Shown one piece after another: positions 16,008 to 35,713 of a stretch of DNA of 44,308 bases; the stretch's first letter is position 1, and each line of letters opens with the position of its first letter. The translations under genes and the position numbers were made by a program. A model generated the notes under the pieces. The model did not search any database. It was not told where the DNA came from and was given only the letters and a program-made list of their open reading frames with translations. The stretch comes from a virus. The stretch covers positions 1 to 44,308 of IMG/VR virus record IMGVR_UViG_3300008113_000153. One strand, written 5' to 3'.

Positions 16008-19000
16008 ATGCCAAATTGGAAAAAAGTCATAGTATCGGGCTCTAATGCTGCCCTAAATTCTTTAAATGTAACAACTAGCATTACAGGCTCTACAGCCCTT
16101 TTTACTTCAATCCCTTCAGGAACAACAGAAACCAATATTGTTGTATTAACAGCAGATGGTGATTTAAGATATAGAAATAATTTAAGTTTACAAGGTGCAC
16201 AAGGTACAACTGGAACCCAAGGAACTACAGGAACTACTGGTGCTCAAGGTACTACTGGTACACAAGGTACAGTAGGAACACAAGGCGCAACTGGAGCTCA
16301 AGGAACCACAGGTGCACAAGGTATAACTGGAACACAAGGTACTACTGGAGCACAAGGAGTAACAGGAACCCAAGGTACAACTGGAACAACTGGTGCACAA
16401 GGTACAACTGGTGCTACTGGTTCACAAGGTACAACTGGTGCTACTGGTTCACAAGGTGCTACTGGTGCTACTGGTTCACAAGGAGCTACTGGAGCACAAG
16501 GATCAACAGGTACACAAGGAGCTGTTGGTACACAAGGAGTTACTGGAACACAAGGTGCTACTGGTTCACAAGGCGCAACTGGAGTACAAGGAACAACAGG
16601 TGCTACTGGAGCTCAAGGTACTACTGGTGCAACAGGATCTCAAGGTGCAACCGGAGCTACTGGTTCACAAGGAGCTACTGGAGCACAAGGAACTACTGGT
16701 ACTCAAGGTGCTGTAGGTTCACAAGGAACTACTGGAGCACAAGGAACTACTGGAGCACAAGGAACAGTTGGTACACAAGGAACAACCGGAAACACTGGAG
16801 CACAAGGAACAACAGGAGCAACAGGATCTCAAGGTGCAACCGGAGCTACTGGTTCTCAAGGTACAACTGGAGCTCAAGGTACAACAGGAACTCAAGGAAC
16901 AGTCGGTACACAAGGTACAACTGGAGCACAAGGAGCTACTGGGTCACAAGGAACCGTCGGTACACAAGGTACAACTGGTGCTACTGGTTCACAAGGAACT
17001 ACCGGAGCACAAGGTATACAAGGTGGTACTGGAGCAACCGGCTCACAAGGTACAACTGGAGCCCAAGGTACCGTTGGTACTACTGGTGCACAAGGAACTA
17101 CTGGAACACAGGGTACACAAGGCGTTACTGGTGCACAAGGAGGAACAGGAGCACAAGGAACTACTGGAACACAGGGTGCAGTTGGTACACAAGGTACAAC
17201 TGGAGCACAAGGAATTACAGGAACACAAGGTACAACTGGTGCACAAGGTACAACAGGAACACAAGGAAATGATGGTTCATTTGGTGGTGCTACGTTTGAT
17301 TACACCTACGATACTTCCACAGCAGCATCAGATCCTGGTACTGGTAAAGTACGATTAAATAACGCAACTGAAAACGTTGCTACTGCGATGTATATTGATT
17401 CTACTACGGATCAAGGTGCAAATATAGATTCATTTTTAAATACAATTAATGCTGTATCATCAGCTATAAAAGGATATGTTAGAATTGCAAATAGAACAGA
17501 TGCAACTCAATTCCTATTATTCCAGATATCAGCATTAACTAATAATACAGGTTGGTGGACATTAACTGTCACTAACCAAGCATTTTCTGCTGCATCACCA
17601 TTTACAAATGCTGAAGACATTATAGTATCTTTTGTAACTACTGGTGATAAAGGTGCACAAGGAACAACAGGTACACAAGGCGTTACTGGTGCACAAGGAA
17701 CAACTGGAACACAAGGTACAGTTGGTACAACAGGTGCTCAAGGTACTACTGGAACACAAGGTACAGTTGGAGCTACCGGATCACAAGGTGCTACTGGAGC
17801 ACAAGGTACAACAGGAACACAAGGAGTTGTTGGTACACAAGGTACAACCGGTGCACAAGGCGCAACAGGTGCACAAGGAACTACTGGTACAACAGGTGCA
17901 CAGGGTGCTACTGGAGCTCAAGGAACTGTAGGTACTACTGGTACACAAGGAACAACTGGAGCTACTGGTTCGCAAGGAGCTACTGGAGCACAAGGAACAA
18001 CTGGGAATACGGGTGCTCAAGGAACTACAGGTACACAAGGAACTGTAGGTGCAACAGGATCTCAAGGTGCAACCGGAACAACAGGTGCACAAGGAGCAAC
18101 AGGTACACAAGGAGCTGTTGGTACCCAAGGTACTACTGGAGCAACAGGAGGAACTGGAGCACAAGGTGCTACTGGAGCACAAGGTACTACTGGTAACACT
18201 GGAGCACAAGGTACAACTGGAACACAAGGAACTGTAGGTGCAACAGGATCTCAAGGTACTACTGGAACTACTGGAGCCCAAGGAACAACAGGTACACAAG
18301 GAGCTGTTGGTGCTACTGGAGGAACAGGTACTCAAGGTGCTACTGGATCTCAAGGAGTAACAGGAATACAAGGAACTACTGGAAATACTGGTGCACAAGG
18401 AACAACTGGAGCACAAGGAACTGTAGGTGCTACTGGTGCACAAGGAACTACTGGAACTACTGGAGCCCAAGGAGCAACAGGTACACAAGGAGCTGTAGGT
18501 ACTCAAGGTGCTACTGGAACGCAGGGTGCAGTTGGTACACAAGGTACTACTGGTGCACAAGGAACTACTGGAACACAAGGCATCCAGGGTATTACAGGTG
18601 CTACTTCTTATGCACTACCCGAAACCGCAGGATCAGCTTCTTGGATCAAACTTGGTACTTGGTCTACATCGCAACAAGGACAATCACTTTACATTCAAAT
18701 TGTAGCTAAAAGTGGTTATAATGCTGATACTACTCAAAACCAAGTTACTGAATTATATTTTAAAACATCTAATGGTTCTAGTAATCAAGGTGGTTTTTAT
18801 GGTGATGGATTAGCCTTTAGAAATACATCATTAGGAACTAACAGTGCGTCTCCTTCTACAATCAGAGTTGTCCAGGTTAGTACTACTTCATATGAAGTCT
18901 ATGGAAACTTCAGTACATATACTGGTTATGGTTCATTATATGCAGTTTTAAACTCACCAAGTACAACTTGGACAAATAGCTCAACAACAGTATCTACTCC

Positions 19001-20237
19001 AACCGGTACTTACATAGATATATCTCCTAGTACCGCAATAGGTCCTCAAGGTATAACTGGAGCACAAGGTACTACTGGAACACAAGGTGCTGTAGGTACT
19101 ACTGGAAATACTGGTGCACAAGGAGCAACAGGTGCACAAGGTACTGTTGGTACAACTGGTACACAAGGAGCAACAGGTGCACAAGGAACTGCTGGTACTA
19201 ATGGTACTCAAGGAACTACTGGAGCACAAGGTATAACTGGAGCACAAGGGGTACAAGGTAGACAAGGTATTACTGGTACAAATGGTACTCAAGGTGCTAC
19301 TGGAGCACAAGGAACAGTAGGTACAACAGGAACTCAAGGAGCAACTGGAGCACAAGGAACAACTGGAGCAACAGGAGGAACAGGTACCCAAGGAGCAACA
19401 GGTGCACAAGGAACAACTGGAGCAACAGGAGCAACAGGTGCACAAGGAACTACTGGAGCAACTGGATCTACCGGAGCACAAGGAACAACTGGAGCCCAAG
19501 GTACAACAGGAACTGGTACCCAAGGAACAACAGGTGCACAAGGTGCAACTGGAGCGGCATCAATTACAAATAATACAGATAATTATGTTCTTACAGCAAC
19601 AGGTGGCTCATCAATTAATGGTGAAGCTAATTTAACATTTGATGGTAGCACTCTTGCATTAGTTGGTAATACTGAATTAAATGGAAATTCAAATTACCTT
19701 AGATGGATGAGTAGTGGAACAACTTTTTATGCTGGTGGTGTTGATATCAGTGCAATAAGTGGTGGCCCAGTCGTTAGACAAGGTGTAAGTTCAGTTAATA
19801 GATACCCAGATTTACAAAACTGGACTGATCAAGTTTATTTTAATGGGTTAATAATTGGCCAAGTTGATGTTTCTGCAGCAGGTGCTGTATCCCCAGGCCA
19901 ACTTTTACATTTAACTACAGGTAATACATGGGAAGCTGCAGATGCAGATACCCAATCTGCAACTAAGTTATTAGGCATATGTGTTGAAAGCGCTGGTGCT
20001 GAAGGTATAACTACTGTTTTATTAAACGGTATATATTCAACAGTATACCATGACCAATTAGGTACAGCAACCTCAGGTACTCCTTTATATGTTTCTACAA
20101 CAAATACTGGATATGTAACTGAAACTGCTCCAACACAAACCGGTGATTTTGTTAGATTAATTGGACATAATATTTTCGACGCATCTGATGCAGTAATTGT
20201 AAGATTTGACCCTGATAATACTTGGATAGCATTATAA
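16008..20237 (+). CDS. Giant collagen-like tail fibre, 1409 aa
   Basis: A 1409-residue fibre. Residues 1-12 carry the WKKVIVSGS module shared with the 14080 gene. Three Gly-X-Y blocks follow at about 63-423, 546-864 and 1012-1184, made mostly of [12 protein letters not shown] and GTV triplets, almost without proline or charge. They are separated by two globular beta domains (about 424-545 and 866-1011). The C-terminal 225 residues contain the [13 protein letters not shown] block and a beta tip (about 1285-1409) with DNTWIAL at the end. Such proteins form trimeric triple-helical shafts in phage fibres. Thr-rich triplets could be O-glycosylated, as known for Bacillus BclA; that is only inference here. 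Confidence 0.85.
16194..17277 (+). repeat. Collagen-like Gly-X-Y block 1
   Basis: About 120 in-frame Gly-X-Y triplets, based on [12 protein letters not shown] units. The DNA repeats at 9 and 18 bases with synonymous variation, so replication slippage and assembly errors are possible here. Confidence 0.9.
17643..18600 (+). repeat. Collagen-like Gly-X-Y block 2
   Basis: About 105 in-frame Gly-X-Y triplets in the same style, with recurring [10 protein letters not shown] and GTVGATG sub-units. It ends in [10 protein letters not shown] before the second globular domain. Confidence 0.9.
19041..19558 (+). repeat. Collagen-like Gly-X-Y block 3
   Basis: About 57 triplets. Includes [10 protein letters not shown] units and one positively charged triplet region ([10 protein letters not shown]), rare in the other blocks. 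One GTG step near 19514 breaks the strict triplet register. Confidence 0.88.
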
Positions 20238-20620: not shown

Positions 20621-23152
20621 ATGAATTCAAATTTTGTTAAAAAGGTTTTAAAAAATAATGGTTCTATCCATCCCATTATTATCCCCGCTGATCAAACAAA
20701 TGGAACAGGGTTAATGAATCCCTCTATTTACAATGACAATGGCAAACTTATAATGAATTTACGCCATGTAAATTATACATTATACCATTGTGAAGGAGAA
20801 CAATTATATATCAATCGTTGGGGCCCATTAGCATACCTAAATCCCGAAAATGACCTACATTTACGTACAACAAATTATTTTTGTGAAGTAACTGATGATT
20901 TAGAAGTTAAATCATTTACAAAAATTGATACTTCAAAATTAGATGTACCACCTATTTGGGAATTTGTTGGATTAGAAGATGGACGTTTAGTTCGTTGGAA
21001 CGATAAATTATATATCTGTGGTGTTAGACGAGATACTACCTCACATGGTGAAGGTAGAATGGAGATGTCTGAACTTGAAATAAAAGATGGTAAAGTTCGA
21101 GAAGTAAAACGTAGTCGTATTAAACACCCATATGATCAATCATCTTATTGTGAAAAAAATTGGATGGTTGTCAATGATATGCCTAACCATTTTATGAAAT
21201 GGACTAATCCTACTGAATTAGTAGAGGCAAATCCTGAAACACTTGAATGTTTTCAACGAGTTGTAAAACCCGGAACTGGACAACATCAAGATATGAGAGG
21301 TAGTTCACAAATTATTCCATATAAAGGAAAACGTATTTGTGTTATCCATGAAGTTGATTTATTTAAAAATAAACTTGGACAAAAAGATGGAAAATATACG
21401 CATCGCTTTGTAATCTGGGATAAAGATTGGAACATTGAACACATTTCAGAACCGTTTAGTTTTATGGATGGTGAAGTTGAATTTTGTTGTGGACTAACAG
21501 AACATAAAGATGATTTACTTATTACATTCGGATTTCAGGATAATGCTGCTTATATTTTAAGAATGCCTCAAACATTCTTTGATCAATATATTGAATCAGA
21601 AAAAAAATCACTTGAATTTAATTGGGGAGAAATTGCTGAAAATAAATGGTTTCAAGAAACAGTTACTGAAGAAATTTTTATTCGTGAAGACTATACAGAA
21701 AAATTTCCAATTGAAAAAGATGATATTGTTTTAGATATTGGAGCATCGGTGGGTCCATTTACATTTTCAATTTTAGATAAACAACCAAAACATGTTTATT
21801 GTTTTGAACCAAAGAAAACGCTATTTGATACAATGGTTCAAAATATTGGAAATAATCCCAATGTTACATTAATTAATAAAGGTATAAATAATGTAGATGG
21901 TGAAACCGAATTTAAAGGCTTATATTTTTCAGATGTTGTAGAAACTCATGGTAGAACTGCTATCGCAGATGCTATTACATTTGATACTTTTTTAGAAGAA
22001 TATGAAGTTTCACAAATTGATTTTATGAAAATTGATTGTGAGGGTGGTGAATATGATATTTTTACTACAGAACGTTTACCTTGGATCAAACAAAACGTTA
22101 AAAAGATTGTAGGTGAATGGCATTTAGCTACCCCTGAACTAAAAGAAAAATTCAGAACGTTTAGAGATACTTATTTAAAACAATTCCATACGTTTGATGT
22201 TTATTCATGGGATGGAGTAGATATTAAGTGGGATTTATGGAACGATCATTTTATTGATTACTATAACGAAATTACACTTTATATTGATAATCGTAGATCT
22301 GAGAAAAAAGAATATTGGCGATTAACTTCGTTACCAACCTTAGAGTTTACTACATCAATCCCACCAAAAGGATGTGTAATTGATTGTGCATTTTGTCCTC
22401 AACGAACATTGTTAAATGTTTACAAGGCAGATAAAACAATGACATTTGAAAACTTTAAAAAAGTAATAGATAAATTACCTAAAGAAGTACGTGTAACATT
22501 CTCCGGATTCACTGAACCATGGTTAAATAAACGCTGTACAGATATGCTTATTTATGCTTCACAACAAGGTCATCCTATAGCAGCATTTACTACAGGTGTA
22601 GGTATGACAGTTGAAGATGTAGAACGCATTAAAGATATTAAATTTGATGGTGGAGAAAATGGTGGTTTATGTTTACATATCCCTGACCAGGAACTTATTG
22701 CTAAACATCCAATTACACCTCGCTTAATTGAAGTATTTGAACGTTTTAAAGAACTTGAAAACCATATAGAAAACTTTTACGTTATGTGTATGGGAGAAGT
22801 TCATGAAAGTGTTAAACATTTATGGCCTGAAGTACATGTTCCTACATTTTGGTCTAGAGCAGGTAACCTATTAGGCGAAGCCATCATTAAACCCGAACTA
22901 GAAAAATATAAAGACCGATTCCAGCACATGGATCATGGTGATAAACCTATGACTTGTGGTTGTGTTGAAGATTTATACCATAATGTTGTATTACCTAATG
23001 GAGATGTTTCATTATGTTGTATGGATTACGGTTTAAAACATATTTTAGGAAATATATTTGAACAAGATTATGAAGATGTAATTCCTAGACCACTACAATG
23101 TTTTTCCTTATGTCAAGGATGTGAAAATGCAGTATCACCTGATAAAAAATAA
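20621..23152 (+). CDS. Three-domain fusion: GH130-like propeller + FkbM methyltransferase + radical SAM/SPASM
   Basis: An 843-residue soluble enzyme. Residues 1 to about 330 look like a five-bladed propeller of the GH130/GH43-like type: PSIYNDNGKLIMNLR, GLEDGRLVRWNDKLYICGVR, RGSSQIIPYKGKRICVIHEV and EVEFCCGLTEHKDDLLITFG. Residues about 345-560 are an FkbM-type SAM methyltransferase with DIVLDIGASVGPF near 367 and DFMKIDCEGGEYD near 467. Residues about 575-843 are radical SAM with CVIDCAFC (C-x3-C-x2-C) near 584-591 and a C-terminal Cys-rich SPASM-like part (CGC, LCC, CFSLCQGC). Substrates are unknown; FkbM enzymes usually O-methylate sugars. The surrounding fibre genes suggest glycan or fibre modification. 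The propeller call is the least certain. Confidence 0.75.
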   Translation: MNSNFVKKVLKNNGSIHPIIIPADQTNGTGLMNPSIYNDNGKLIMNLRHVNYTLYHCEGEQLYINRWGPLAYLNPENDLHLRTTNYFCEVTDDLEVKSFTKIDTSKLDVPPIWEFVGLEDGRLVRWNDKLYICGVRRDTTSHGEGRMEMSELEIKDGKVREVKRSRIKHPYDQSSYCEKNWMVVNDMPNHFMKWTNPTELVEANPETLECFQRVVKPGTGQHQDMRGSSQIIPYKGKRICVIHEVDLFKNKLGQKDGKYTHRFVIWDKDWNIEHISEPFSFMDGEVEFCCGLTEHKDDLLITFGFQDNAAYILRMPQTFFDQYIESEKKSLEFNWGEIAENKWFQETVTEEIFIREDYTEKFPIEKDDIVLDIGASVGPFTFSILDKQPKHVYCFEPKKTLFDTMVQNIGNNPNVTLINKGINNVDGETEFKGLYFSDVVETHGRTAIADAITFDTFLEEYEVSQIDFMKIDCEGGEYDIFTTERLPWIKQNVKKIVGEWHLATPELKEKFRTFRDTYLKQFHTFDVYSWDGVDIKWDLWNDHFIDYYNEITLYIDNRRSEKKEYWRLTSLPTLEFTTSIPPKGCVIDCAFCPQRTLLNVYKADKTMTFENFKKVIDKLPKEVRVTFSGFTEPWLNKRCTDMLIYASQQGHPIAAFTTGVGMTVEDVERIKDIKFDGGENGGLCLHIPDQELIAKHPITPRLIEVFERFKELENHIENFYVMCMGEVHESVKHLWPEVHVPTFWSRAGNLLGEAIIKPELEKYKDRFQHMDHGDKPMTCGCVEDLYHNVVLPNGDVSLCCMDYGLKHILGNIFEQDYEDVIPRPLQCFSLCQGCENAVSPDKK

Positions 23153-25488: not shown

Positions 25489-27522
25489 ATGGCAGAAACA
25501 ATTGTCTCACCTGGTGTATTAGCAATAGAGAACGACCAATCATTTGTAACTCAACAACCTGTACAAGCAGGTGCTGCTATCATTGGCCCAACCGTTAAAG
25601 GTAAAGTAGGAATTCCTACTCTAGTAACTTCATATAGTGATTATTTAAATAAGTTTGGTGCTACTTTTTTAAGTGGAAGTACTACTTATACTTATTTTAC
25701 TTCTATTGCTGCTTATAACTATTTTAATAGTGGTGGAACTTCACTTTTAGTAACTCGTGTTGTAACTGGATCATTTACTTCTGCTACTTCATCTTTAATT
25801 CCTTCATCAACAGCAGCTACTTCAGCATCTGCTACTCTTGATTTAACTAATGCAGTAACAGTTGCTTATACAGCTTCATTTAATGGTATAGATGTAATCC
25901 TTTCAGGATCAACAACTCAAGAAGTATTTAATAATGCTACATCTTCAGGTGTAATTCCATCCAACCCAACTAACTTTTACACAAATACAACTATTAATAG
26001 TAGTGCTTCATTTAATGCTCCTACTATGACTATAACTTCCACTAACCCAAATGGTTTAGCTGGAAATTCATCTTACTACATTTCAGGAAGTACAATTGTG
26101 TATTATACTGGTGGTACAAACACTGAAGCATTTATCCTAGAGACCATATCTGAAGGAGAAATCATGAATAGTACTGGCCCAGTAGGTCAAAACAATACCC
26201 TTCTTTCAGGATCAAGTGAAAACTATAGATGGCAGATTACTTCTCCTAATGTAAATGATGGAACATTTTATCTTTTAATTCGTCAAGGAAATGATACTGT
26301 TATTTCTCCGTCTGTTTTAGAATCATGGGGTCCATTATCTTTAGATACGAACTCACCAAACTATATCGAAAAAGTAATAGGTAATCAAGTTGAAACAATT
26401 CAATTTGATCCTTCAACAGGTGAATATTATGTTGAATTGGTTGGAAATTATGCCAATGTTTCAAAATATGTTAGAGTAAAACAAGTAAATACTCCAACAC
26501 CAAATTACTTTGACAATAATGGAATCCCTAAACCAGAATTTACAGGTTCAATTCCATATTTTTCAAGTGGTTCTTTTGGTGATGCTACAGGAAAATTATT
26601 CTATGGAGGTGACAACAAATATTATGAAACTATCACAACTACCAATAATATCCAAGGTATCCCAGCTAGTGCATATACTGAATCTATTTTATTATTAGCT
26701 AATAAAGATGCATATAACTATAATTTATTAGTTGCTCCTGGGTTAATATCTAGTATGGGTGGTGTAGCTGCTTCTGCTATTACTTCTATGATTGACACTG
26801 CTCAAAATAGAGGTGATATGATGGTAGTATTTGATTCTTCATTATATAACTCTCAAATCGGTAGTGTATTATCTAATGTTGCCGGGTATGATACTTCATA
26901 TGCTGCTACTTACTGGCCTTGGGTTAAAACAATTGATCCAAATACAGCTAATCAAGTTTGGGTACCTGCGTCTGCTGTAGTTCCTGGAGTATATGCTTTT
27001 AATGATAATGTTGCTGCTCCTTGGTTTGCTCCTGCAGGTATTAATAGAGGAGTATTAACTACTACTATTCAAGCAGAACGTGTATTAACTCAAAATAATA
27101 GAGATACATTATATCAAGCAAATATTAATCCTATTGCTACTTATCCTAATACTGGTATAGTAGTATTTGGACAAAAGACATTACAAAAGAAAAAAAGTTC
27201 TTTAGACCGTATTAACGTACGTCGTTTATTGATTGAACTTAAAAGCTATATTTCTCAAGTTGCTGATACATTTGTATTTGAACAAAATGATGCTGTTACT
27301 CGTAGTAATTTTTCATCTATTATCAGTTCATATTTAGCATCTGTTCAACAGCAACAAGGTTTAACCGCGTTTAGAGTGGTAATGGATGAATCTAACAACC
27401 CACCTCAAGTAGTAGATAATAATCAAATGGTAGGACAAATTTATTTACAACCTACTAGAACAGCTGAATTTATCATACTTGATTTCAATATATTACCTAC
27501 TGGTGCAACATTTCCTGTTTAA
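25489..27522 (+). CDS. gp18: Tail sheath protein gp18-like, long paralogue
   Basis: A 677-residue contractile tail sheath protein. The N-terminus has the sheath pattern SPGVLAIENDQSFVTQQPVQ and a GPTVKG block. The C-terminal 200 residues are highly characteristic: APWFAPAGINRGVLTTTIQA, INVRRLLIELKSYISQVADT, FRVVMDESNNPPQVVDNNQM and QPTRTAEFIILDF. Compared with the next gene it carries about 115 extra residues (roughly 105-215), Ser/Thr/Asn-rich and beta-like, in a part of sheath proteins that generally faces outward. The two sheath genes are closely similar at both ends and so are paralogues. It has its own late motif. Confidence 0.88.
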   Translation: MAETIVSPGVLAIENDQSFVTQQPVQAGAAIIGPTVKGKVGIPTLVTSYSDYLNKFGATFLSGSTTYTYFTSIAAYNYFNSGGTSLLVTRVVTGSFTSATSSLIPSSTAATSASATLDLTNAVTVAYTASFNGIDVILSGSTTQEVFNNATSSGVIPSNPTNFYTNTTINSSASFNAPTMTITSTNPNGLAGNSSYYISGSTIVYYTGGTNTEAFILETISEGEIMNSTGPVGQNNTLLSGSSENYRWQITSPNVNDGTFYLLIRQGNDTVISPSVLESWGPLSLDTNSPNYIEKVIGNQVETIQFDPSTGEYYVELVGNYANVSKYVRVKQVNTPTPNYFDNNGIPKPEFTGSIPYFSSGSFGDATGKLFYGGDNKYYETITTTNNIQGIPASAYTESILLLANKDAYNYNLLVAPGLISSMGGVAASAITSMIDTAQNRGDMMVVFDSSLYNSQIGSVLSNVAGYDTSYAATYWPWVKTIDPNTANQVWVPASAVVPGVYAFNDNVAAPWFAPAGINRGVLTTTIQAERVLTQNNRDTLYQANINPIATYPNTGIVVFGQKTLQKKKSSLDRINVRRLLIELKSYISQVADTFVFEQNDAVTRSNFSSIISSYLASVQQQQGLTAFRVVMDESNNPPQVVDNNQMVGQIYLQPTRTAEFIILDFNILPTGATFPV

Positions 27523-27567: not shown

Positions 27568-29280
27568 ATGGCAAATTTCACAACTTCTCCTGGAGTAGCA
27601 ATTAGCGAAATAGACAACACTTTCTTAACTGGCCAACCAGTACAAGCAGGTGCTGCTATTATAGGCCCTACAGTTAAAGGCCCATATGAAAAACCAGTAC
27701 TTGTAACAACTTATTCAGACTTTGTAACATTGTTTGGAGATACTTTTATTAGTGGTGGTAACTCTTATTCTTATTTAACTTCAATTGCTGCTTACAATTA
27801 TTTTAATTATGGAGGAACTTCATTATTAGTTGCTCGTGTAGCAAGTGGTTCTTATTCGTCTGCAGTTAGCACCCCAATTCCTAATATTTTTACCTCTTCA
27901 TCTTTTTCTTTAGAAACGATTTCTGAAGGAGTTCTTATGAATAACTCAGGTTCAAATACACTTGGAGCTTCAGGATCATTAAACTCAGGATCAGTTGCTA
28001 ATATTCGTTGGGAAATTACAAATGCTAACACTGGTTCAGGTACATTTAACGTATTAATTAGACGTGGTAATGATATTGAGTCTAATAAAGTAGTATTAGA
28101 GGCATGGAATAATTTAACATTAGATCCAAATTCAAACCGCTATATTTCTAGAGTAATTGGTGATCAAAAACTTCAATATAATTCTACTACACAACAAATG
28201 GAATTATCTGGAAGCTTTCCAAATAATTCAAAATATGTTCGTGTAAAATCAGTTAATTATCCTACACCAAATTATTTTGATGCAAATGGTGTTGCAATAG
28301 TAGCCTATACAGGATCTATCCCAGTAAATGGTAGTGGTTCAGCTGGTGGGTCATTTAGAAATGCTGGAGGAGATGTAAGTGGTTCAATTAAATTATATGA
28401 TGAAATTGGTGTTAATACACAAGGATTAATAGGTGATGATTATAATAATATGATTACACTTTTAGGTAATCCTGAAGAATATCAATTTAACGTATTATTT
28501 ACTCCTGGTCTATTAAACGATACTCATACAGAACAAGTTACAAATATTATCTCAAATACAATTGCAAGAGGTGATAGTATGTATGTGATGGATTTAGGAA
28601 TATACGGTACTAAACTTCCAGAAGCAGTAACACAAGCTCAAATGCGTGATACTTCATATGCTGCTACTTATTGGCCTTGGGTTCGCATCATTGACCCAGG
28701 AACAGGAAAACATGTTTGGGCTCCAGCTTCAACCGTAATTCCAGGTGTATATGCATTTAATGATAAAGTAGCTGCTCCTTGGTTTGCACCAGCAGGTATT
28801 AACCGCGGTGGATTAAGCACAGTTCTTCAAGCTGAATATAAACTTACACAAGGTAATCGCGACACATTATACAGCAATAATATTAACCCAATTGCAACAC
28901 TCCCTCAACAAGGTGTAGTAGTATATGGTCAGAAAACACTACAAAAAGCTCAATCTGCTCTTGATCGTGTAAACGTACGTCGTTTAATGATTGAATTGAA
29001 AGCTTATATCAAACAAATTGCAGATACAATTGTATTTGAACAAAATACTATTTCTACAAGAAATTCATTCTTATCAAGAGTTAACCCATACCTAGAAGCA
29101 ATTCAACAAAAACAAGGATTGTATGCCTTTAGAGTTGTAATGGATGATTCAAATAATGGACCAGCAGTAATTGATCAAAATCAATTAGTAGGACAAATTT
29201 ATATTCAACCTACCCGCACAGCTGAATTCATTTCGTTAGACTTTATTTTACAACCAACAGGTGCTCAATTCCCTGTATAA
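27568..29280 (+). CDS. gp18: Tail sheath protein gp18-like, short paralogue
   Basis: A 570-residue sheath protein, parallel in order and motif to the previous gene (SPGVAISEIDNTFLTGQPVQ; GPTVKGPYEKPVLVTTYSDF; APWFAPAGINRGGLSTVLQA; NVRRLMIELKAYIKQIADTI; QPTRTAEFISLDF). It lacks the 115-residue insertion, so it is nearer the minimal sheath. In contractile tails the sheath polymerises around the tube and shortens to drive it through the envelope. It is followed by the tail tube gene as in T4 (18-19). Whether both paralogues enter one tail is not visible from sequence. Confidence 0.9.
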   Translation: MANFTTSPGVAISEIDNTFLTGQPVQAGAAIIGPTVKGPYEKPVLVTTYSDFVTLFGDTFISGGNSYSYLTSIAAYNYFNYGGTSLLVARVASGSYSSAVSTPIPNIFTSSSFSLETISEGVLMNNSGSNTLGASGSLNSGSVANIRWEITNANTGSGTFNVLIRRGNDIESNKVVLEAWNNLTLDPNSNRYISRVIGDQKLQYNSTTQQMELSGSFPNNSKYVRVKSVNYPTPNYFDANGVAIVAYTGSIPVNGSGSAGGSFRNAGGDVSGSIKLYDEIGVNTQGLIGDDYNNMITLLGNPEEYQFNVLFTPGLLNDTHTEQVTNIISNTIARGDSMYVMDLGIYGTKLPEAVTQAQMRDTSYAATYWPWVRIIDPGTGKHVWAPASTVIPGVYAFNDKVAAPWFAPAGINRGGLSTVLQAEYKLTQGNRDTLYSNNINPIATLPQQGVVVYGQKTLQKAQSALDRVNVRRLMIELKAYIKQIADTIVFEQNTISTRNSFLSRVNPYLEAIQQKQGLYAFRVVMDDSNNGPAVIDQNQLVGQIYIQPTRTAEFISLDFILQPTGAQFPV

Positions 29281-29326: not shown

Positions 29327-29815
29327 ATGCCAATTCTAAATCCAAACGAAATATTTTTCACAGCGTTTGAACCTAAACAATCCAACCGTTTTATCCTTTA
29401 TATGGATGGTGTCCCTGCATACTTAGTAAAAGGAGTAGGTGCTGTATCTTTAACACAAACTGCAGTTGCTCTTAACCATATCAACATCCAACGATATGTA
29501 AAAGGAAAAACTATTTGGAACACGATTCAATTTACATTATATGAATCAATTACTCCAAGTGGTGCACAAGCAGTAATGGAATGGGTACGTTTAGGTCACG
29601 AATCAGTAACAGGCCGTGACGGTTACTCAGATTTCTATAAAAAAGATATCCGATTCAACGTATTAGGTCCTGTAGGTGATATCGTTTCTGAATGGGTAAT
29701 TAAAGGAGCAGTTATTACAGAAGCTAACTTCGGTGATTATAGCTGGGATGATGATGGTCAAGCAGTAAATATCCAAGTAACTGTACAACCTGACTACTGT
29801 ATCTTGAACTACTAA
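29327..29815 (+). CDS. gp19: Tail tube protein gp19-like
   Basis: A 162-residue protein, the same size as T4 gp19 (163). It begins MPILNPNEIFFTAFEPKQSN followed by RFILYMDGVP, a common start of T4-type tube proteins, and ends in strand-rich AVNIQVTVQPDYCILNY. gp19 forms hexameric rings that stack into the tube delivering DNA. It directly follows the sheath genes and is closed by an intrinsic terminator at 29841-29868, so it is a single-gene unit with its own motif. Confidence 0.87.
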   Translation: MPILNPNEIFFTAFEPKQSNRFILYMDGVPAYLVKGVGAVSLTQTAVALNHINIQRYVKGKTIWNTIQFTLYESITPSGAQAVMEWVRLGHESVTGRDGYSDFYKKDIRFNVLGPVGDIVSEWVIKGAVITEANFGDYSWDDDGQAVNIQVTVQPDYCILNY

Positions 29816-29888: not shown

Positions 29889-31853
29889 ATGAAAAAATTA
29901 ATTGCACTTTTATTATTAGCTAATATAGGATATAGCCAATATTGTCCATCTTTAGGACCTGATCAAATATTACCTTGTGGTATAGGATCAACTACTTTAA
30001 CCGCAAATTTAAGTCAATGTGGTACAGGAACAAACCCTAATCAAACAACAAATTATAGTGCAAGCCCAATTGCATATACAAATCAAACCAATACAGGAAC
30101 TCAGTTATTCATGACTGATGATTCTCAGCAAGGCCCATTTAATATTGGATTTACATTTTGCTTTTTTGGACAAACATATACACAATTTTATGTAGGTTCA
30201 AATGGGTGGATTTCATTTTCCCCAGGCCAACCAACAACATTTACTACTCAAACAATTCCTACAGGTAATTTTTTAGTGCCTAAAAATTGCATTATGGGTC
30301 CTTGGCAAGATTGGCATCCTGGTGTTGGAGGACAAATTAGATATCAAACTAGTGGGGTTGCACCTTGTAGAAAGTTAACAGTAAGTTGGACAAATATGCC
30401 AATGTTTAGTTGTACAGGAAACCAAGGTACATTTCATATTATAATTTATGAATCATCTAACTACATCGAAAACTATATTCAAAATAAACCAGCTTGTTTG
30501 CAATGGCAAGGAGGCACAGCAACTCAAGGAATTCATAATGCTGCAGGTACTATAGGAATTGCTGTGCCTGGTAGAAATTCAACTGCTTGGACTGCAACAA
30601 ACGACGCATATAGATGGACACCAACAGGTCCTGTAGTTGTACCTACTTTAACATGGTATCAAGTAGGTAATCCAAATCCAATTGGAACAGGTCCTACTAT
30701 TAATGTAACTCCAAATGGACCAACTCAATATACTTGTCATTTAACATACCCAATTTGTAATGCTGGTTGGTCTGCTTGTAATGGAGGAGCTAGTTTAGGT
30801 CCTGATACTGTATTAGTTGTACCTGGTCCTCCAATTCCGTCAACTGGACCTATTAGTGGATTAGATACTATATGTTATTTAAGTTCATATGAAATGTATA
30901 GTGTTCCCTCTCAACCTACTTACAATTACCTTTGGAGTAGTGTTGCTCCTATCACTTCAGGACAAGGAACTAATATCATTACAGTAGATTTTAGCTCATT
31001 TCCTGGAGGATTTATTCCTGGAGCTATTCAAGTAACTCCTGAAGAAAATGGATGTACTGGATTGCCTGTAACTATTGATTTATTTATTTTAAATGTTTTA
31101 CCTACAATTGATCCTATAGGACCATTTTGTGAATACGACGAATTTGTTACTTTAAACGTAAATCCTGTTGGAGGAATACTTAGTGGTGTAGGTATTACAG
31201 GTAATGATTTTTACCCTTCAAACGCAATAGGAACTAATGTTATTAATTATGAATATACTTTAAGTGGATGTACATTTGATACAACAACAACAGTAATAGT
31301 TAACCCTCAACCAACTCTTGATTCAATTTCTCCATATAATCCATTTTACCAAGTTTGTGAAGGTGATTCTATTGTAACTCTATTTACTGCTTTATCAAAT
31401 TTACCTGGATATAACGAATGGACATTCATGGGAACAACATATCAACAAGATGATATTTCTATTTCATTTGAAACCCCAGGAATGTTTCCTTTATCAGTAA
31501 TTCATTATTCAAATGGGTGTGTTTCACCTGTTCAAGAAACAATAATTACAGTAGCACGTTGTCCTGAATTATTATTTTATGTTCCTAATTCATTTACACC
31601 TGATGGAAATGAACATAATAATGTTTTTCAACCTGTATTTACAAATGGATTTGATCCATATGATTTTTATTTAGTAATATTTAATCGTTGGGGAGAATTA
31701 ATATATGAATCATATAATTCTGCAGAATATTGGGATGGAACATATAATAATATACCATGTCCTGTAGGATCATATACATATAAAATCCAATTTGGTTTTA
31801 AAGAAACGGATAATGATCAAGTAATAATAGGAAATATCAATCTTGTTCGATAG
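29889..31853 (+). CDS. Secreted T9SS-type protein with gliding-motility C-terminal (type B) sorting domain
   Basis: A 654-residue exported protein. Residues 1-16 (MKKLIALLLLANIGYS) are a clear Sec signal peptide. About residues 20-260 are a beta domain with FGQTYTQFYVGSNGWISFSP and several cysteines, followed by Ig/PKD-like repeats (about 260-555). The last 95 residues match the gliding-motility-associated C-terminal domain: FYVPNSFTPDGNEHNNVFQP, then FNRWGELIYES, WDGTYNN and PVGSYTYKIQF. In Bacteroidota this domain directs export through T9SS and surface attachment. The gene sits alone between the tube terminator and the baseplate genes with a host-like promoter, like an acquired 'moron'. 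An infected-cell surface role is inferred. Confidence 0.85.
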   Translation: MKKLIALLLLANIGYSQYCPSLGPDQILPCGIGSTTLTANLSQCGTGTNPNQTTNYSASPIAYTNQTNTGTQLFMTDDSQQGPFNIGFTFCFFGQTYTQFYVGSNGWISFSPGQPTTFTTQTIPTGNFLVPKNCIMGPWQDWHPGVGGQIRYQTSGVAPCRKLTVSWTNMPMFSCTGNQGTFHIIIYESSNYIENYIQNKPACLQWQGGTATQGIHNAAGTIGIAVPGRNSTAWTATNDAYRWTPTGPVVVPTLTWYQVGNPNPIGTGPTINVTPNGPTQYTCHLTYPICNAGWSACNGGASLGPDTVLVVPGPPIPSTGPISGLDTICYLSSYEMYSVPSQPTYNYLWSSVAPITSGQGTNIITVDFSSFPGGFIPGAIQVTPEENGCTGLPVTIDLFILNVLPTIDPIGPFCEYDEFVTLNVNPVGGILSGVGITGNDFYPSNAIGTNVINYEYTLSGCTFDTTTTVIVNPQPTLDSISPYNPFYQVCEGDSIVTLFTALSNLPGYNEWTFMGTTYQQDDISISFETPGMFPLSVIHYSNGCVSPVQETIITVARCPELLFYVPNSFTPDGNEHNNVFQPVFTNGFDPYDFYLVIFNRWGELIYESYNSAEYWDGTYNNIPCPVGSYTYKIQFGFKETDNDQVIIGNINLVR

Positions 31854-31871: not shown

Positions 31872-32243
31872 ATGAAACTAGATAGTTTACGTACGTTAGT
31901 TAAAGAGGAGCTTAGTAAGCGACTAAATGAGGAATACCAAGACAAATTCAAAATGGTAGGTATGCTCATTACCAACATTAAAAAACGCCCTCAAAAAGAA
32001 ATTTTCTCAGATATTCGTTCCATTCCAGGTGTTACAGTAGCATCTGTAAAAGAACCAATGGAATATAGTGAGCAAGATACAGAAAAATTTCAATCTATAA
32101 TGACCGTTAAAGTAGATGGTCATCCATGGATTGCATCTAGTGGATTCGACCGTTCAAAAATGGAAGATATCCGCAAAGCTATATTAAAAGTAGAAGGAGT
32201 ATTATCATTTAATGTGAATCCTGATAATATTTCTGCTCTTTAA
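31872..32243 (+). CDS. Hypothetical protein, 123 aa, ACT/ferredoxin-like pattern
   Basis: A 123-residue protein. The first 25 residues form a charged helix (LRTLVKEELSKRLNEEY). The remainder alternates strand and helix as in a beta-alpha-beta-beta-alpha-beta fold: KMVGMLITNIKK, EIFSDIRSIPGVTVASVKE, FQSIMTVKVDG, KMEDIRKAILKVEGVLSFNV. The two GV turns after the helices are typical of ACT/ferredoxin-like domains. It starts the baseplate group; the function is not known. Family recognition is by fold pattern only. Confidence 0.55.
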   Translation: MKLDSLRTLVKEELSKRLNEEYQDKFKMVGMLITNIKKRPQKEIFSDIRSIPGVTVASVKEPMEYSEQDTEKFQSIMTVKVDGHPWIASSGFDRSKMEDIRKAILKVEGVLSFNVNPDNISAL

Positions 32244-32284: not shown

Positions 32285-33013
32285 ATGAGCGAATTTAAGT
32301 TACCAACTGAAACTATCGAATTACCTTCTAAAGGTTTACTTTATCCTGAAGATTCTGAATTAGCAAAAGGTGTTATTGAAATGAAATACATGACTGCTAA
32401 GGAAGAAGATATCCTTACAAACCAATCATATATTCAAAACGGTACAGTACTTGATAAATTGATGAAATCATTAATTGTGTCTAAAATCAATTATGATGAT
32501 CTATTAATTGGTGACAAAAATGCAATCATGGTTGCATCTCGTATTTTAGGTTATGGTAACGAATATACTTTTACTTATGGTAACGAAGAACACACAGTAG
32601 ATTTAACTACTCTAGATAATAAACCACTAGATGAAAATCTATTTGCTTCCCGCACAAATGAATTTGAATTTGTTCTTCCTAAATCAAAAAATACAATTAC
32701 CTTTAAACTTTTAACCCATAAAGACGAACAAGAAATTAATCGTGAACTAGAAGGTTTAAAGAAAATTAATAAAGATTCCTCTCCTGAACTCTCAACTCGA
32801 TTAAAACACATAATCCTCTCAGTAAATGGAGAACGAGATCGAAAAGTAGTTCGAGAATTTGTAGACGGGTTTTTACTCGCACAAGATTCTCGAGCATTAA
32901 GAGAATATATTCGCGAGATTCAGCCCGATGTTGATCTAACTTTTTTTCCCAACGGCAGCGACACTAGAGTCAATCTCCCAATTGGGCTTAAGTTTTTTTG
33001 GCCTGACATATGA
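32285..33013 (+). CDS. gp26: Baseplate hub/tail assembly protein gp26-like
   Basis: A 242-residue protein with the T4 gp26-type pattern: TIELPSKGLLYPE near the N-terminus, EMKYMTAKEEDILTNQSY, a central beta region, helices with DGFLLAQDSRALREYIREI, and the family-style end NLPIGLKFFWPDI. T4 gp26 takes part in baseplate hub assembly. The gene has two 7-T runs near its end, at 32941-32947 and 32993-32999, the second 14 bases before the stop. An out-of-frame partner gene overlaps its end, and the tape measure gene follows, the same arrangement as tail-assembly chaperone pairs (lambda G/GT). Confidence 0.75.
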   Translation: MSEFKLPTETIELPSKGLLYPEDSELAKGVIEMKYMTAKEEDILTNQSYIQNGTVLDKLMKSLIVSKINYDDLLIGDKNAIMVASRILGYGNEYTFTYGNEEHTVDLTTLDNKPLDENLFASRTNEFEFVLPKSKNTITFKLLTHKDEQEINRELEGLKKINKDSSPELSTRLKHIILSVNGERDRKVVREFVDGFLLAQDSRALREYIREIQPDVDLTFFPNGSDTRVNLPIGLKFFWPDI

Positions 33014-33296
33014 TATAGTTCCTCAAGTCAGAGCTAATCTATTTAAACAAATCCACGAAATAGTTTTCCACGGAAAAGGAGGCTATGATTGGAATACAAT
33101 CTACAACATGCCTATTTGGCTTCGTAAATTTACTTTTAACGAAATAAGGAATTATTACGAAGAACAAAAAGATGCCGCTGAAGGAAAACAAAGCAGCGGA
33201 GGAAGACAAACTGTAATCGGTTCTGATGGTAAAGTAAAAGTACCTGAATTATTACAACAGGTTAAAAATGCTAAAAAACCACCTAAGTACGGCTAA
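32982..33296 (+). CDS. Overlapping gp26 partner, probably made by -2/+1 frameshift
   Basis: A 104-codon frame starting from TTG at 32982; no ATG occurs in frame until 33108, which would remove the conserved-looking part LTYDIVPQVRANLFKQIHEI and GYDWNTIYNMPIWLRKF. It lies in the +1 (or -2) frame relative to gp26 and overlaps it by 32 bases. The T7 run at 32993-32999 sits exactly where gp26 reads LKFF, so a -2 or +1 slip would give LKFF(F)GLTYD. A possible stem CTGAC/GTCAG (33003-33007 with 33027-33031) follows. The C-terminal 40 residues are polar. I interpret it as the T-type half of a tail chaperone made as a gp26 fusion; an independent TTG start is the alternative. Confidence 0.65.
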   Translation: MGLSFFGLTYDIVPQVRANLFKQIHEIVFHGKGGYDWNTIYNMPIWLRKFTFNEIRNYYEEQKDAAEGKQSSGGRQTVIGSDGKVKVPELLQQVKNAKKPPKYG

Positions 33297-33334: not shown

Positions 33335-35713
33335 ATGGCTGAAAAGGACGAAATACAAAAACGCATAAAGGAAGAAATTGCTAGACTTGACAAAGCAAGT
33401 GCTAAATCCTATCAAGATCAATTAAAAGGATTAGATGCTATAAATGCTAGTTTAGATACATATCAAAGTCTTTTAAACAACATCAAAAATGATGTTGCTG
33501 ATATGAATAAAGGTTTTTCTGGGATATTAGGTGAAATTAAAGCAATAGTTGGTGAATTAGAGAAAGGAAATAAATCTACAAAAGATGCTACTAAAGCATT
33601 TAAAGGACTTGAATCTATAGCCTCAAAACTCAAATATGACCAGCAAGGGTATAATGATTTAAATATAGATCAATTAAAAACAGAAAAAAGTAAACTTAGT
33701 ATATTAGAAAACCAAGCAAGAGCTGCTGCAAAACAATTAGCCCAAGATAAAGGTATTGTAGATCTTGCTCATACAAATTTATCTTTTAGACGTGATTTAT
33801 CTGAAGAAGAAAGAGCTATTCTTGAAGCTGCTAAAGAAGGTTTTACTGTATACGAACGAACAAATAAACTTCTTAAAGAACGAATTAAAGAAGAAAAAGA
33901 AATAAATAAAAAATTAGGTGTTACTGGTGCTTTACTTATGGGAATGAGTAAAATTCCTATAGTAGGACCATTACTTAAAACTAATGAAGCATTAGACATT
34001 GCTAGAGAAAAAGCTAAAGCCGGAGGTAATGCTTTCCAAGTAATGGGTGCTGGTTTAGCAAGTGTAGGTAAAAGTTTATTATCATCTTTAACAGATCCTT
34101 TAGTAGTAATTGGTTTAATGGTAAAAGCATTCCAAGAACTACTTAAGTTAGGTTTTAAACTTGACAAACAAACAACATCTCTCCAAAAAACGCTTTATCT
34201 TAGTAGAACTGAAGCTGAGATGATGCATAAATCGTTTGGGGCAATGAATAGAACCCAAACACAATTAGTTGATGGTTATGAGGCTGCATTATCTACTTTA
34301 CAAAATCAAACAGATGCTGCTAATCAATTAGGTGTTTCTTTTGGTGCCGTATCTAGAGTTACTAATGAAGAAATTCAAAACCAAATCAAATTAACTAAAC
34401 AACTTGGTTTATCTGTTGAAGAAAGTCAAGCTTTATATGTTTTAGCTCGTCAAAATAATATGACTCAAGATGATATTACTAAAGAAGTAGTATCACAAGT
34501 AAATACCTTTAAAAAACAATCAGGAACACTTTTAGATTCTAAAAAAATATTACAAGATGTTTCTAAAATTTCAGGTCAATTACGCTTACAATACGGAAAT
34601 AACGTTAAACAATTAGTTGCTGCTACTGTTCAAGCTAATAAATTAGGATTTTCATTAGAAAAAACTAAACAAATAGCTGAAGGATTATTAAATTTTGAAG
34701 AATCAATTGAGAATGAATTATCAGCAGAATTATTAATTGGTAGAGACCTTAACTTAGAACAAGCACGTTTACTTGCATTAAATGGTAAATCTGCAGAAGC
34801 TACAGCTTTAATTGCAGAAAATATGGGTGGCTCAGCAGGATTTGCTGCTATGAATGTTATCCAACAAGAATCATTAGCTAAAGCATTAAATATGAGTGCT
34901 GATGAATTGGCTAATTCAATCATGCATCAAGAAAACTTAAAAAGATTAAGTGTAGAAGATAAAAAACGTTTAGAAGAAAAATTAGCATATTATAAATCAA
35001 TTGGAGAAATAGAAAAAGCTCAGCAATTAGAAAGAGCTGCAGCTAATGAAGGTAATATAAGTGCTGCTCTTGAAGCAGTAGATGCTGAAACTAAATTTCA
35101 AGCTGCTGTAGAATCTATTAAAGATTCACTAGCTTCTCTTGTAGAAGGACCTGCTATGAAATTAGCAAATGGATTAGCTGAAATGTTAGTTAATGGAACT
35201 GGATTAGCTAGAGTCATTACAAATATTGGTCTTACTTTAGCGGCATTAAGCATGGCATCTTTTCTTAGACAATTAGTATTAGCAGGTGTTGCTGCTGGAA
35301 CACTAGCAGCAGGAACCGCAACCACAGTCTCAGCACTTACCCTTGGTGCAGGCGCTGTAGCAGTTATTGCTGGTCTAATGGGGATTATGAGTGCTTTTAA
35401 TAGTGCTTCTGAAGCTGCTGAAAGAAAAGCTACTAAAACAAATTATGCTTCTGGTGGTATCGTTGGAGGTAATTCATTAGTAGGAGATAATGTTAAAATT
35501 AATGCCAATTCAGGTGAAATGGTATTAAATAGAAGACAACAAGCTAAACTATTTAGCTTAATAAATAATGGTGGTGGCGGTGGAGATACTCAATTAAATG
35601 CTAATTTAATATTAGATGGTCAAGTGTTAGCTAATGCTATAACTAAAATTGAAAAAACGTATTCTAATAAATTAGGTAGTGCTCGACAAGAAGCAAACAG
35701 ACTTCTACAATAA
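33335..35713 (+). CDS. Tape measure protein
   Basis: A 792-residue protein. Residues 1-190 are coiled coil (IKEEIARLDKASAKSYQDQL and further). A hydrophobic GALLMGMSKIPIVGPLL segment is near 197-213, a long helical centre follows, and a strongly hydrophobic Ala/Gly-rich region covers about 625-690. It ends with the typical tape-measure tail: YASGGIVGGNSLVGD, NANSGEMVLNRRQQAKL and a Gly run, then a helix. Tape measure proteins set tail length and fill the tube before ejection. It follows the chaperone-like pair, as usual in long-tailed phages. It is longer than T4 gp29 (590), so a longer tail is possible. Confidence 0.82.
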   Translation: MAEKDEIQKRIKEEIARLDKASAKSYQDQLKGLDAINASLDTYQSLLNNIKNDVADMNKGFSGILGEIKAIVGELEKGNKSTKDATKAFKGLESIASKLKYDQQGYNDLNIDQLKTEKSKLSILENQARAAAKQLAQDKGIVDLAHTNLSFRRDLSEEERAILEAAKEGFTVYERTNKLLKERIKEEKEINKKLGVTGALLMGMSKIPIVGPLLKTNEALDIAREKAKAGGNAFQVMGAGLASVGKSLLSSLTDPLVVIGLMVKAFQELLKLGFKLDKQTTSLQKTLYLSRTEAEMMHKSFGAMNRTQTQLVDGYEAALSTLQNQTDAANQLGVSFGAVSRVTNEEIQNQIKLTKQLGLSVEESQALYVLARQNNMTQDDITKEVVSQVNTFKKQSGTLLDSKKILQDVSKISGQLRLQYGNNVKQLVAATVQANKLGFSLEKTKQIAEGLLNFEESIENELSAELLIGRDLNLEQARLLALNGKSAEATALIAENMGGSAGFAAMNVIQQESLAKALNMSADELANSIMHQENLKRLSVEDKKRLEEKLAYYKSIGEIEKAQQLERAAANEGNISAALEAVDAETKFQAAVESIKDSLASLVEGPAMKLANGLAEMLVNGTGLARVITNIGLTLAALSMASFLRQLVLAGVAAGTLAAGTATTVSALTLGAGAVAVIAGLMGIMSAFNSASEAAERKATKTNYASGGIVGGNSLVGDNVKINANSGEMVLNRRQQAKLFSLINNGGGGGDTQLNANLILDGQVLANAITKIEKTYSNKLGSARQEANRLLQ

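Follow-up and report, generated by a model that had tools for sequence, protein, structure and literature searches.

A conserved recoding site, most likely of the +1 type, in a gp26-like, probable tail assembly chaperone gene of a contractile-tailed phage

A real and strongly conserved recoding site, most likely of the +1 type, lies within a gp26-like, probable tail assembly chaperone gene of a contractile-tailed phage. The phage is represented by the IMG/VR virus record IMGVR_UViG_3300008113_000153, of which positions 1-44,308 were analyzed; this whole stretch of 44,308 bases is referred to below as the window. The gene very probably gives rise to a short and a long form of the chaperone through a programmed ribosomal frameshift, for which +1 is the most likely direction. 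Phage tail length control relies on a tuned ratio of two such chaperone forms, and the UUU_Y site in question would stand out among natural +1 shift sites by its unusually strong conservation. We know of no general motif for the class of +1 shift sites on UUU_Y.

The locus and its overlapping reading frames

The locus comprises the following features, in the order of their position in the window:

29327-29815: tail tube gene (PHROG_4542, E 3.8e-22)
31872..32243, + strand: possible tail terminator gene upstream of the pair, with weak matches (PHROG_3907, E 0.025; Pfam tail terminator, E 0.065)
32285..33013, + strand: gp26-like gene, 242 aa, stop codon at 33011-33013; the short tail assembly chaperone (TAC-N) if read to its own stop
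32940..33296, + strand: overlapping +1-frame ORF, given from stop to stop, with its first ATG only at 33108 (from the sequence and the ORF lists)
32993..33001, + strand: slip site TTT TTT TGG (0 frame); proposed +1 slip of tRNA-Phe on UUU_U with UGG as the A-site codon
32993..33007, + strand: conserved 15-mer TTTTTTTGGCCTGAC, covering the slip site and the doubly read codons
33000..33293, + strand: T domain, 98 aa, in the +1 frame; C-terminal extension of the putative long form (TAC-NC), with no start of its own
33335..35713, + strand: tape measure gene, 792 aa (PHROG_24676 tail length tape measure protein, E 2.8e-8)

The gene order is sheath, tube, chaperone and tape measure, and the pair formed by the gp26-like gene and the T domain, which lies after the tail tube gene and immediately before the tape measure gene, occupies a G/GT-type position. 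The seven-T run (T7; 32993-32999) falls at the FF of LKFFW in the gp26-like protein, and the sequence in which the two ORFs overlap reads AAG TTT TTT TGG CCT GAC ATA TGA. The +1-frame ORF, which closes with a stop at 33294-33296, also holds a TTG at 32982. The coordinates given in a first-pass annotation of this DNA for the gp26-like ORF, the T7 run, the second ORF and its ATG at 33108 are all correct on the sequence.

From the sequences and by analogy, we infer that a fusion protein is produced here in minor amount, by a +1 rather than a -2 slip, and that the products act as chaperones. Most ribosomes would finish at the gp26-like stop codon (33011-33013) and release the 242-aa TAC-N. A minority would slip +1 at TTT TTT TGG, the peptidyl-tRNA-Phe moving from one UUU to the overlapping UUU before the A-site UGG is decoded, and would then read GGC CUG ACA in the +1 frame to yield a TAC-NC fusion of ~336 aa (238 + 98, ~38 kDa). 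By analogy with lambda G/GT, the abundant short form would coat the tape measure protein, and the scarce long form would bring in the tail tube protein via the T domain.

Several other genes of the region show features of their own. Two adjoining tail sheath genes (25489-27522 and 27568-29280; PHROG_23, E ~1e-72 each) appear as if duplicated. Between the tail tube and terminator-like genes stands a 654-aa ORF (29889-31853) with a type IX secretion sorting domain (TIGR04131, E 4.4e-11, and PF13585, both over the cut-off) as well as a PKD-like domain; homologues of at least a part of it are present in 25 related loci, and a host-type secretion signal inside a phage tail operon is odd. Further upstream, an 843-aa protein (20621-23152) combines an FkbM methyltransferase domain with a radical SAM/SPASM domain within the structural gene region, and a 1409-aa protein (16008-20237) consists largely of collagen-like repeats (PF01391, E 7e-118).

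Conservation of the overlap, the slip site and the extension

Two IMG/VR scans yielded a first homologue set of 160 loci, and the second ORF lies in the +1 frame in every one of the 159 sequences, window included, in which both parts could be placed. Wider scans, seeded from Microcystis phage Mel-JY01, giant phage LR756508, Listeria phage LIS04 and Rhodothermus phage RM378, recovered the same +1 layout. Altogether, the second ORF occupies the +1 frame in nearly all scorable related loci (258, drawn from several reference groups), which include phages of Flavobacterium, Microcystis, Rhodothermus, Bacillus, Listeria and Streptococcus. The layout is seen in the isolated phages Flavobacterium phage immuto, Mel-JY01, RM378, Bacillus phage SP-15, LIS04 and Streptococcus phage GXN1, in the annotations of which the second part figures as an ATG-started fragment, as a hypothetical gene, or not at all; many phage genomes, that of the immuto phage among them, are annotated with the second form truncated or missing.

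A codon alignment of 154 gp26 genes (<90% identity) contains 78 columns that combine a conserved amino acid with a synonymous choice. The three most codon-invariant of these are Phe238 (TTT in 147/147), Pro240 (CCT in 98.7%) and Phe237 (TTT in 149/151), as compared with a background of 1174 TTT vs 254 TTC among the Phe codons of the alignment, it being understood that the ~150 genes share ancestry and do not amount to that many independent events. Double coding offers no explanation for the invariance of the third base of Phe237, which the +1 frame does not read. The slip 12-mer is TTTTTTTGGCCT in 141 of 153 genes and a close variant in the remainder; the variants TTTCTTTGG (the slip sequence of phage immuto), TTCTTTTGG, CTTTTTTGG and TTTTTTTAC all retain +1 re-pairing, and the slip-less silent form of the slip sequence, i.e., its control version, is TTCTTCTGG. 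The 15-mer TTTTTTTGGCCTGAC occurs once in the window, and an exact IMG/VR scan for it returned at least 80 loci, and in each of those listed the 15-mer is preceded by gp26 in the 0 frame and followed by the T domain in the +1 frame. The T7 run by itself proves nothing, since its 24 matches in the window are fewer than in shuffled sequences.

The overlap is confirmed as standing far above chance. The first-pass annotation had suggested a shift at the T run that joins the gp26-like protein to the next ORF, in the style of the TAC pairs found upstream of tape measure genes, and had looked to an alignment of homologues as a check. At the level of sequence the suggestion is borne out, with overlap and slip site conserved, the frame constant in 159/159 and the slip codons the most invariant of all. 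Two of its subsidiary proposals fared differently: the CTGAC..GTCAG stem after the slip is present in only 4 of 144 relatives, and the second T7 run at 32941-32947, put forward as a further slip site, in 47 of 154, such that neither is conserved, the latter showing no sign of use.

A conserved downstream structure or a Shine-Dalgarno-like stimulator was looked for at the slip site in the relatives, and none was found; the folding z-scores 3' of the slip (-0.4 to -1.0) are as at some other gene positions. A GGG located 9 nt before the second slip codon corresponds to a Gly in just 71% of relatives, encoded by GGG in 59% of those. A rare A-site codon was considered as the cause and rejected, since UGG occurs in the window at 9.1 per 1000 and is not especially rare.

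Conservation of the T domain, which has the core HGxGGY..YNMPIWLR, sets in at the very first codon after the slip (G in 98%, L in 99%). Its codon-position heterozygosity is 0.43/0.32/0.55, i.e., the second position varies least and the third most. The gp26-like part and the T domain were modelled separately; the predicted structure of the latter is made up mostly of confident helices with a loose tail, and no structural match to it was found in BFVD or among the solved chains compared. Profile comparison relates it to the short 'hub assembly catalyst' of the marine cyanophage-type loci (hhalign E 5e-7), and a scan of 60 family members recovered PHROG_634 in 5 only, with weak scores (best E 0.0022). 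Additionally, the clade comprising loci L250-L259, in which the slip sequence is TTC TTT TGG, has a T domain without the GG of the HGxGGY motif (HGKVTF or HGKVSF).

Direction of the proposed shift and alternative readings

Re-pairing of the P-site tRNA at both slip codons, after a +1 or a -2 movement, was scored at every +1-frame locus. Perfect +1 re-pairing is seen in every scorable +1-frame relative; the site of one locus (L163) was taken by hand reading as TTT CTA, in which the slip from TTT to TTC is likewise a perfect +1. The foremost alternative is a -2 shift, as used by phage Mu (PMC5009743), in which the ribosome would step two bases back on TTTTTTT and enter the same frame with one extra Phe. 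In the window itself, with its run of seven Ts, a -2 slip gives re-pairing as good as that of a +1 slip, and at the commonest site, which accounts for 237 of the 258 loci, -2 re-pairing is perfect. However, it is imperfect in the other 21: in five loci with TTTCTTT it is achieved only via a G-U pair, and in 16 it is impossible even though +1 is perfect, namely in the 14 loci that make up a clade with TTC TTT TGG, in Streptococcus phage GXN1 (TTC TTT CGT) and in LR756508 (TTT CTA TTC). A Mu-type shift would require re-pairing two bases back in all relatives, which is not what these loci display, and we regard a -2 shift as unlikely. Nor does the locus have the form of a canonical -1 site, in which X_XXY_YYZ would be followed by the domain in the -1 frame, as the domain is in the +1 frame both in the window and in its clade. 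Because variants of the TTC TTT TGG type permit a perfect +1 but no -2 slip, +1 is favoured over -2, and the simplest mechanism common to the relatives is most likely a +1 slip of tRNA-Phe on UUU_Y. The '-2/+1' shift of the first-pass annotation is hence retained as a programmed frame change at the T run, with its direction narrowed to most likely +1.

A second alternative treats the second ORF as an independently started gene, which would begin at the ATG at 33108, at the TTG at 32982, or by reinitiation past the gp26 stop. The annotation of phage immuto, with a 36-aa ORF from the first ATG, is of this kind; further, in 53 of 144 relatives (about a third) an in-frame ATG of the +1 frame precedes the slip, which makes initiation possible in some members, and the cyanophage-type relatives have an ATG two bases beyond the gp26 stop. 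However, a start at 33108 would lose a large conserved piece of the T domain, the conservation of which begins at the slip, and in several relatives the +1 frame opens just two nucleotides 5' of the first slip codon, leaving no space for an upstream start. Two relatives, L260 and L265, do carry a separate version of the domain, in another frame and with its own ATG after the gp26 stop. Both are without the slip site (TTC TTG TAT and TTC CTT TGG CCA, respectively), and in the tree both are nested within the +1 clade, beside immuto. Within the clade, an own start goes together with lost slip codons and a different frame, and the two loci constitute a natural control, in which the slip site is lost where the domain has its own ATG. 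Homologues with a proper ATG and ribosome site for the second ORF had been named in the first-pass annotation as an argument against a shift; the two loci with the ATG have lost the slip site. We consider an independent start in the window to be highly improbable.

Least probable of all, if by little, is transcriptional slippage on the T7 run, which would make an mRNA one U shorter or two longer from which normal translation gives the fusion; the usual site is indeed a seven-T run, but the TTTCTTTGG and TTCTTTTGG relatives possess the same overlap and domain with runs of only three or four Ts.

The gp26 family and comparison with known systems

The protein in which the +1 slip is proposed matches PHROG_150 'baseplate hub' (E 3.4e-8, residues 4-169), as do T4 gp26, T4 gp51 and cyanophage gp26. 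It is named 'gp26-like' because it falls short of the gathering score of Pfam PF12322 (18.7 vs 24.5 bits), a family matched at E <= 0.01 by 56 of 75 relatives. A profile of the window's gp26 set matched cyanophage gp26 weakly and T4 gp51 alone without significance; the family link to T4 gp51 and cyanophage gp26 is drawn from their common membership of PHROG_150/PF12322, not from direct profile comparison. The AlphaFold2 model of the gp26-like protein (pLDDT 91.7) finds T4-like hub or hub-assembly proteins in BFVD, e.g., that of SP-15 (E 1.8e-15). The best solved structure is the HK97 tail assembly chaperone 2ob9, a weak match (Z 4.5 over 92 residues, the next being 2.4) in the range of Z <8 that may be due to chance. 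Taken together, the gene order, the short/long design and the match to 2ob9 point to a tail assembly chaperone gene. Two gp26 relatives (L361 and L363) lie on contigs of MAGs labelled Winogradskyella and Flavobacteriales, a hint at Bacteroidota hosts.

Other arrangements are found elsewhere in the family. All 80 marine cyanophage-type loci have a U_UUU_UUC heptamer at both Phe codons (TTT TTC; 32 of 32 non-redundant loci, against a background of 257:112) and the domain in the -1 frame; with the ATG two bases past the gp26 stop, both a frameshift and an own start are possible in these loci. The domain of Stenotrophomonas phage RAS14 and giant phage LR756511 is also in the -1 frame, behind U-rich heptamers. 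T4 gp26 ends in EFFELL without an extension, and T4 gp51, which matches PF12322 over residues 1-201 and PHROG_634 ('hub assembly catalyst') over 147-246, looks on this basis like a second copy of gp26 that has incorporated the extension. Six changes are needed to place the four states on a tree of 57 sequences, the deep joins of which are unsure owing to long branches.

These patterns lead us to favour, with some reserve, a scenario in which one conserved Phe-Phe site serves as the shift point family-wide in T4-like gp26 genes: +1 on UUU_Y in Bacteroidota-type, giant and some Firmicutes phages, and -1 on U_UUU_UUC in the marine cyanophage-type, with an own start taking its place in some lineages, and duplication into gp26 and gp51 in T4. 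The frame of the extension would then be seen to change at one site during evolution. Further, the T4 exception to chaperone frameshifting would represent a secondary loss, and the T4 'hub' proteins gp26 and gp51, the function of which is unclear, would be two forms of one once-frameshifting chaperone gene.

The window's arrangement resembles lambda gpG/gpGT in pairing a short protein with a rarer frameshifted long form between the tail tube and tape measure genes, and in a T-like domain that would be translated only after the shift. It differs in that the lambda shift is -1, whereas here it would be +1, with a UUU_Y slip and a protein of the gp26-like family (PHROG_150). A 2016 review describes G-T frameshifting as conserved in long-tailed phages 'except T4' (PMC5009743). 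T4 gp26 belongs to the same family as the window protein (PHROG_150), but in T4 gp26 and gp51 are separate genes on opposite strands with no shift, whereas in the window both forms would come from one gene. Vladimirov et al. (2022, Virology 566:9) reportedly ascribed a chaperone role to such T4-like genes. The T4 gp26 family bears a conserved shift site in its relatives and T4 gp51 resembles the duplicated long form; if gp51 is such a duplicate, this would explain the T4 exception, and it makes the puzzle of the gp26/gp51 'hub' testable. The marine cyanophage-type gp26 with its short gp51 shares with the window the two Phe codons at the same place and a T-type domain in the next ORF, and differs in the -1 frame, the U_UUU_UUC heptamer and the ATG after the gp26 stop.

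A 2025 paper describes a TAC locus of the Vandenendeviridae (phage Adele) with a -1 shift at GTTTTT, the domain of which had earlier been annotated as a hypothetical gene or as intergenic, and notes that the TAC-N genes of T4-like phages are known to carry -1 signals of the poly-T type (PMC12846349). The statement of the first-pass annotation that such shifts are not described for gp26-type genes was accordingly too strong. In Adele, as in the window, the 3' end of TAC-N carries a conserved poly-T slip sequence; Adele differs in its -1 direction and in belonging to other phage families. Other +1 shifts include E. coli prfB on CUU_U, the tail gene of Listeria phage PSA/A118 on CCC_U and, very likely, the tail chaperone of halovirus HSTV-2, and UUU_U is described as less shift-prone than CUU_U (PMC5009743). 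The likeness of prfB, PSA/A118 and HSTV-2 to the window lies in a P-site slip one base forward. In prfB, the slip is accompanied by an A-site stop codon and by an element resembling a Shine-Dalgarno sequence, placed three bases upstream. The slip site of the window is not of this type, having UGG rather than a stop codon in the A site and no conserved Shine-Dalgarno-like element just upstream. A partial literature search found no description of a +1 site in T4-like gp26 genes; chaperone frameshifting itself is known, and it is the +1 mode at the T4-like gp26 site that appears new.
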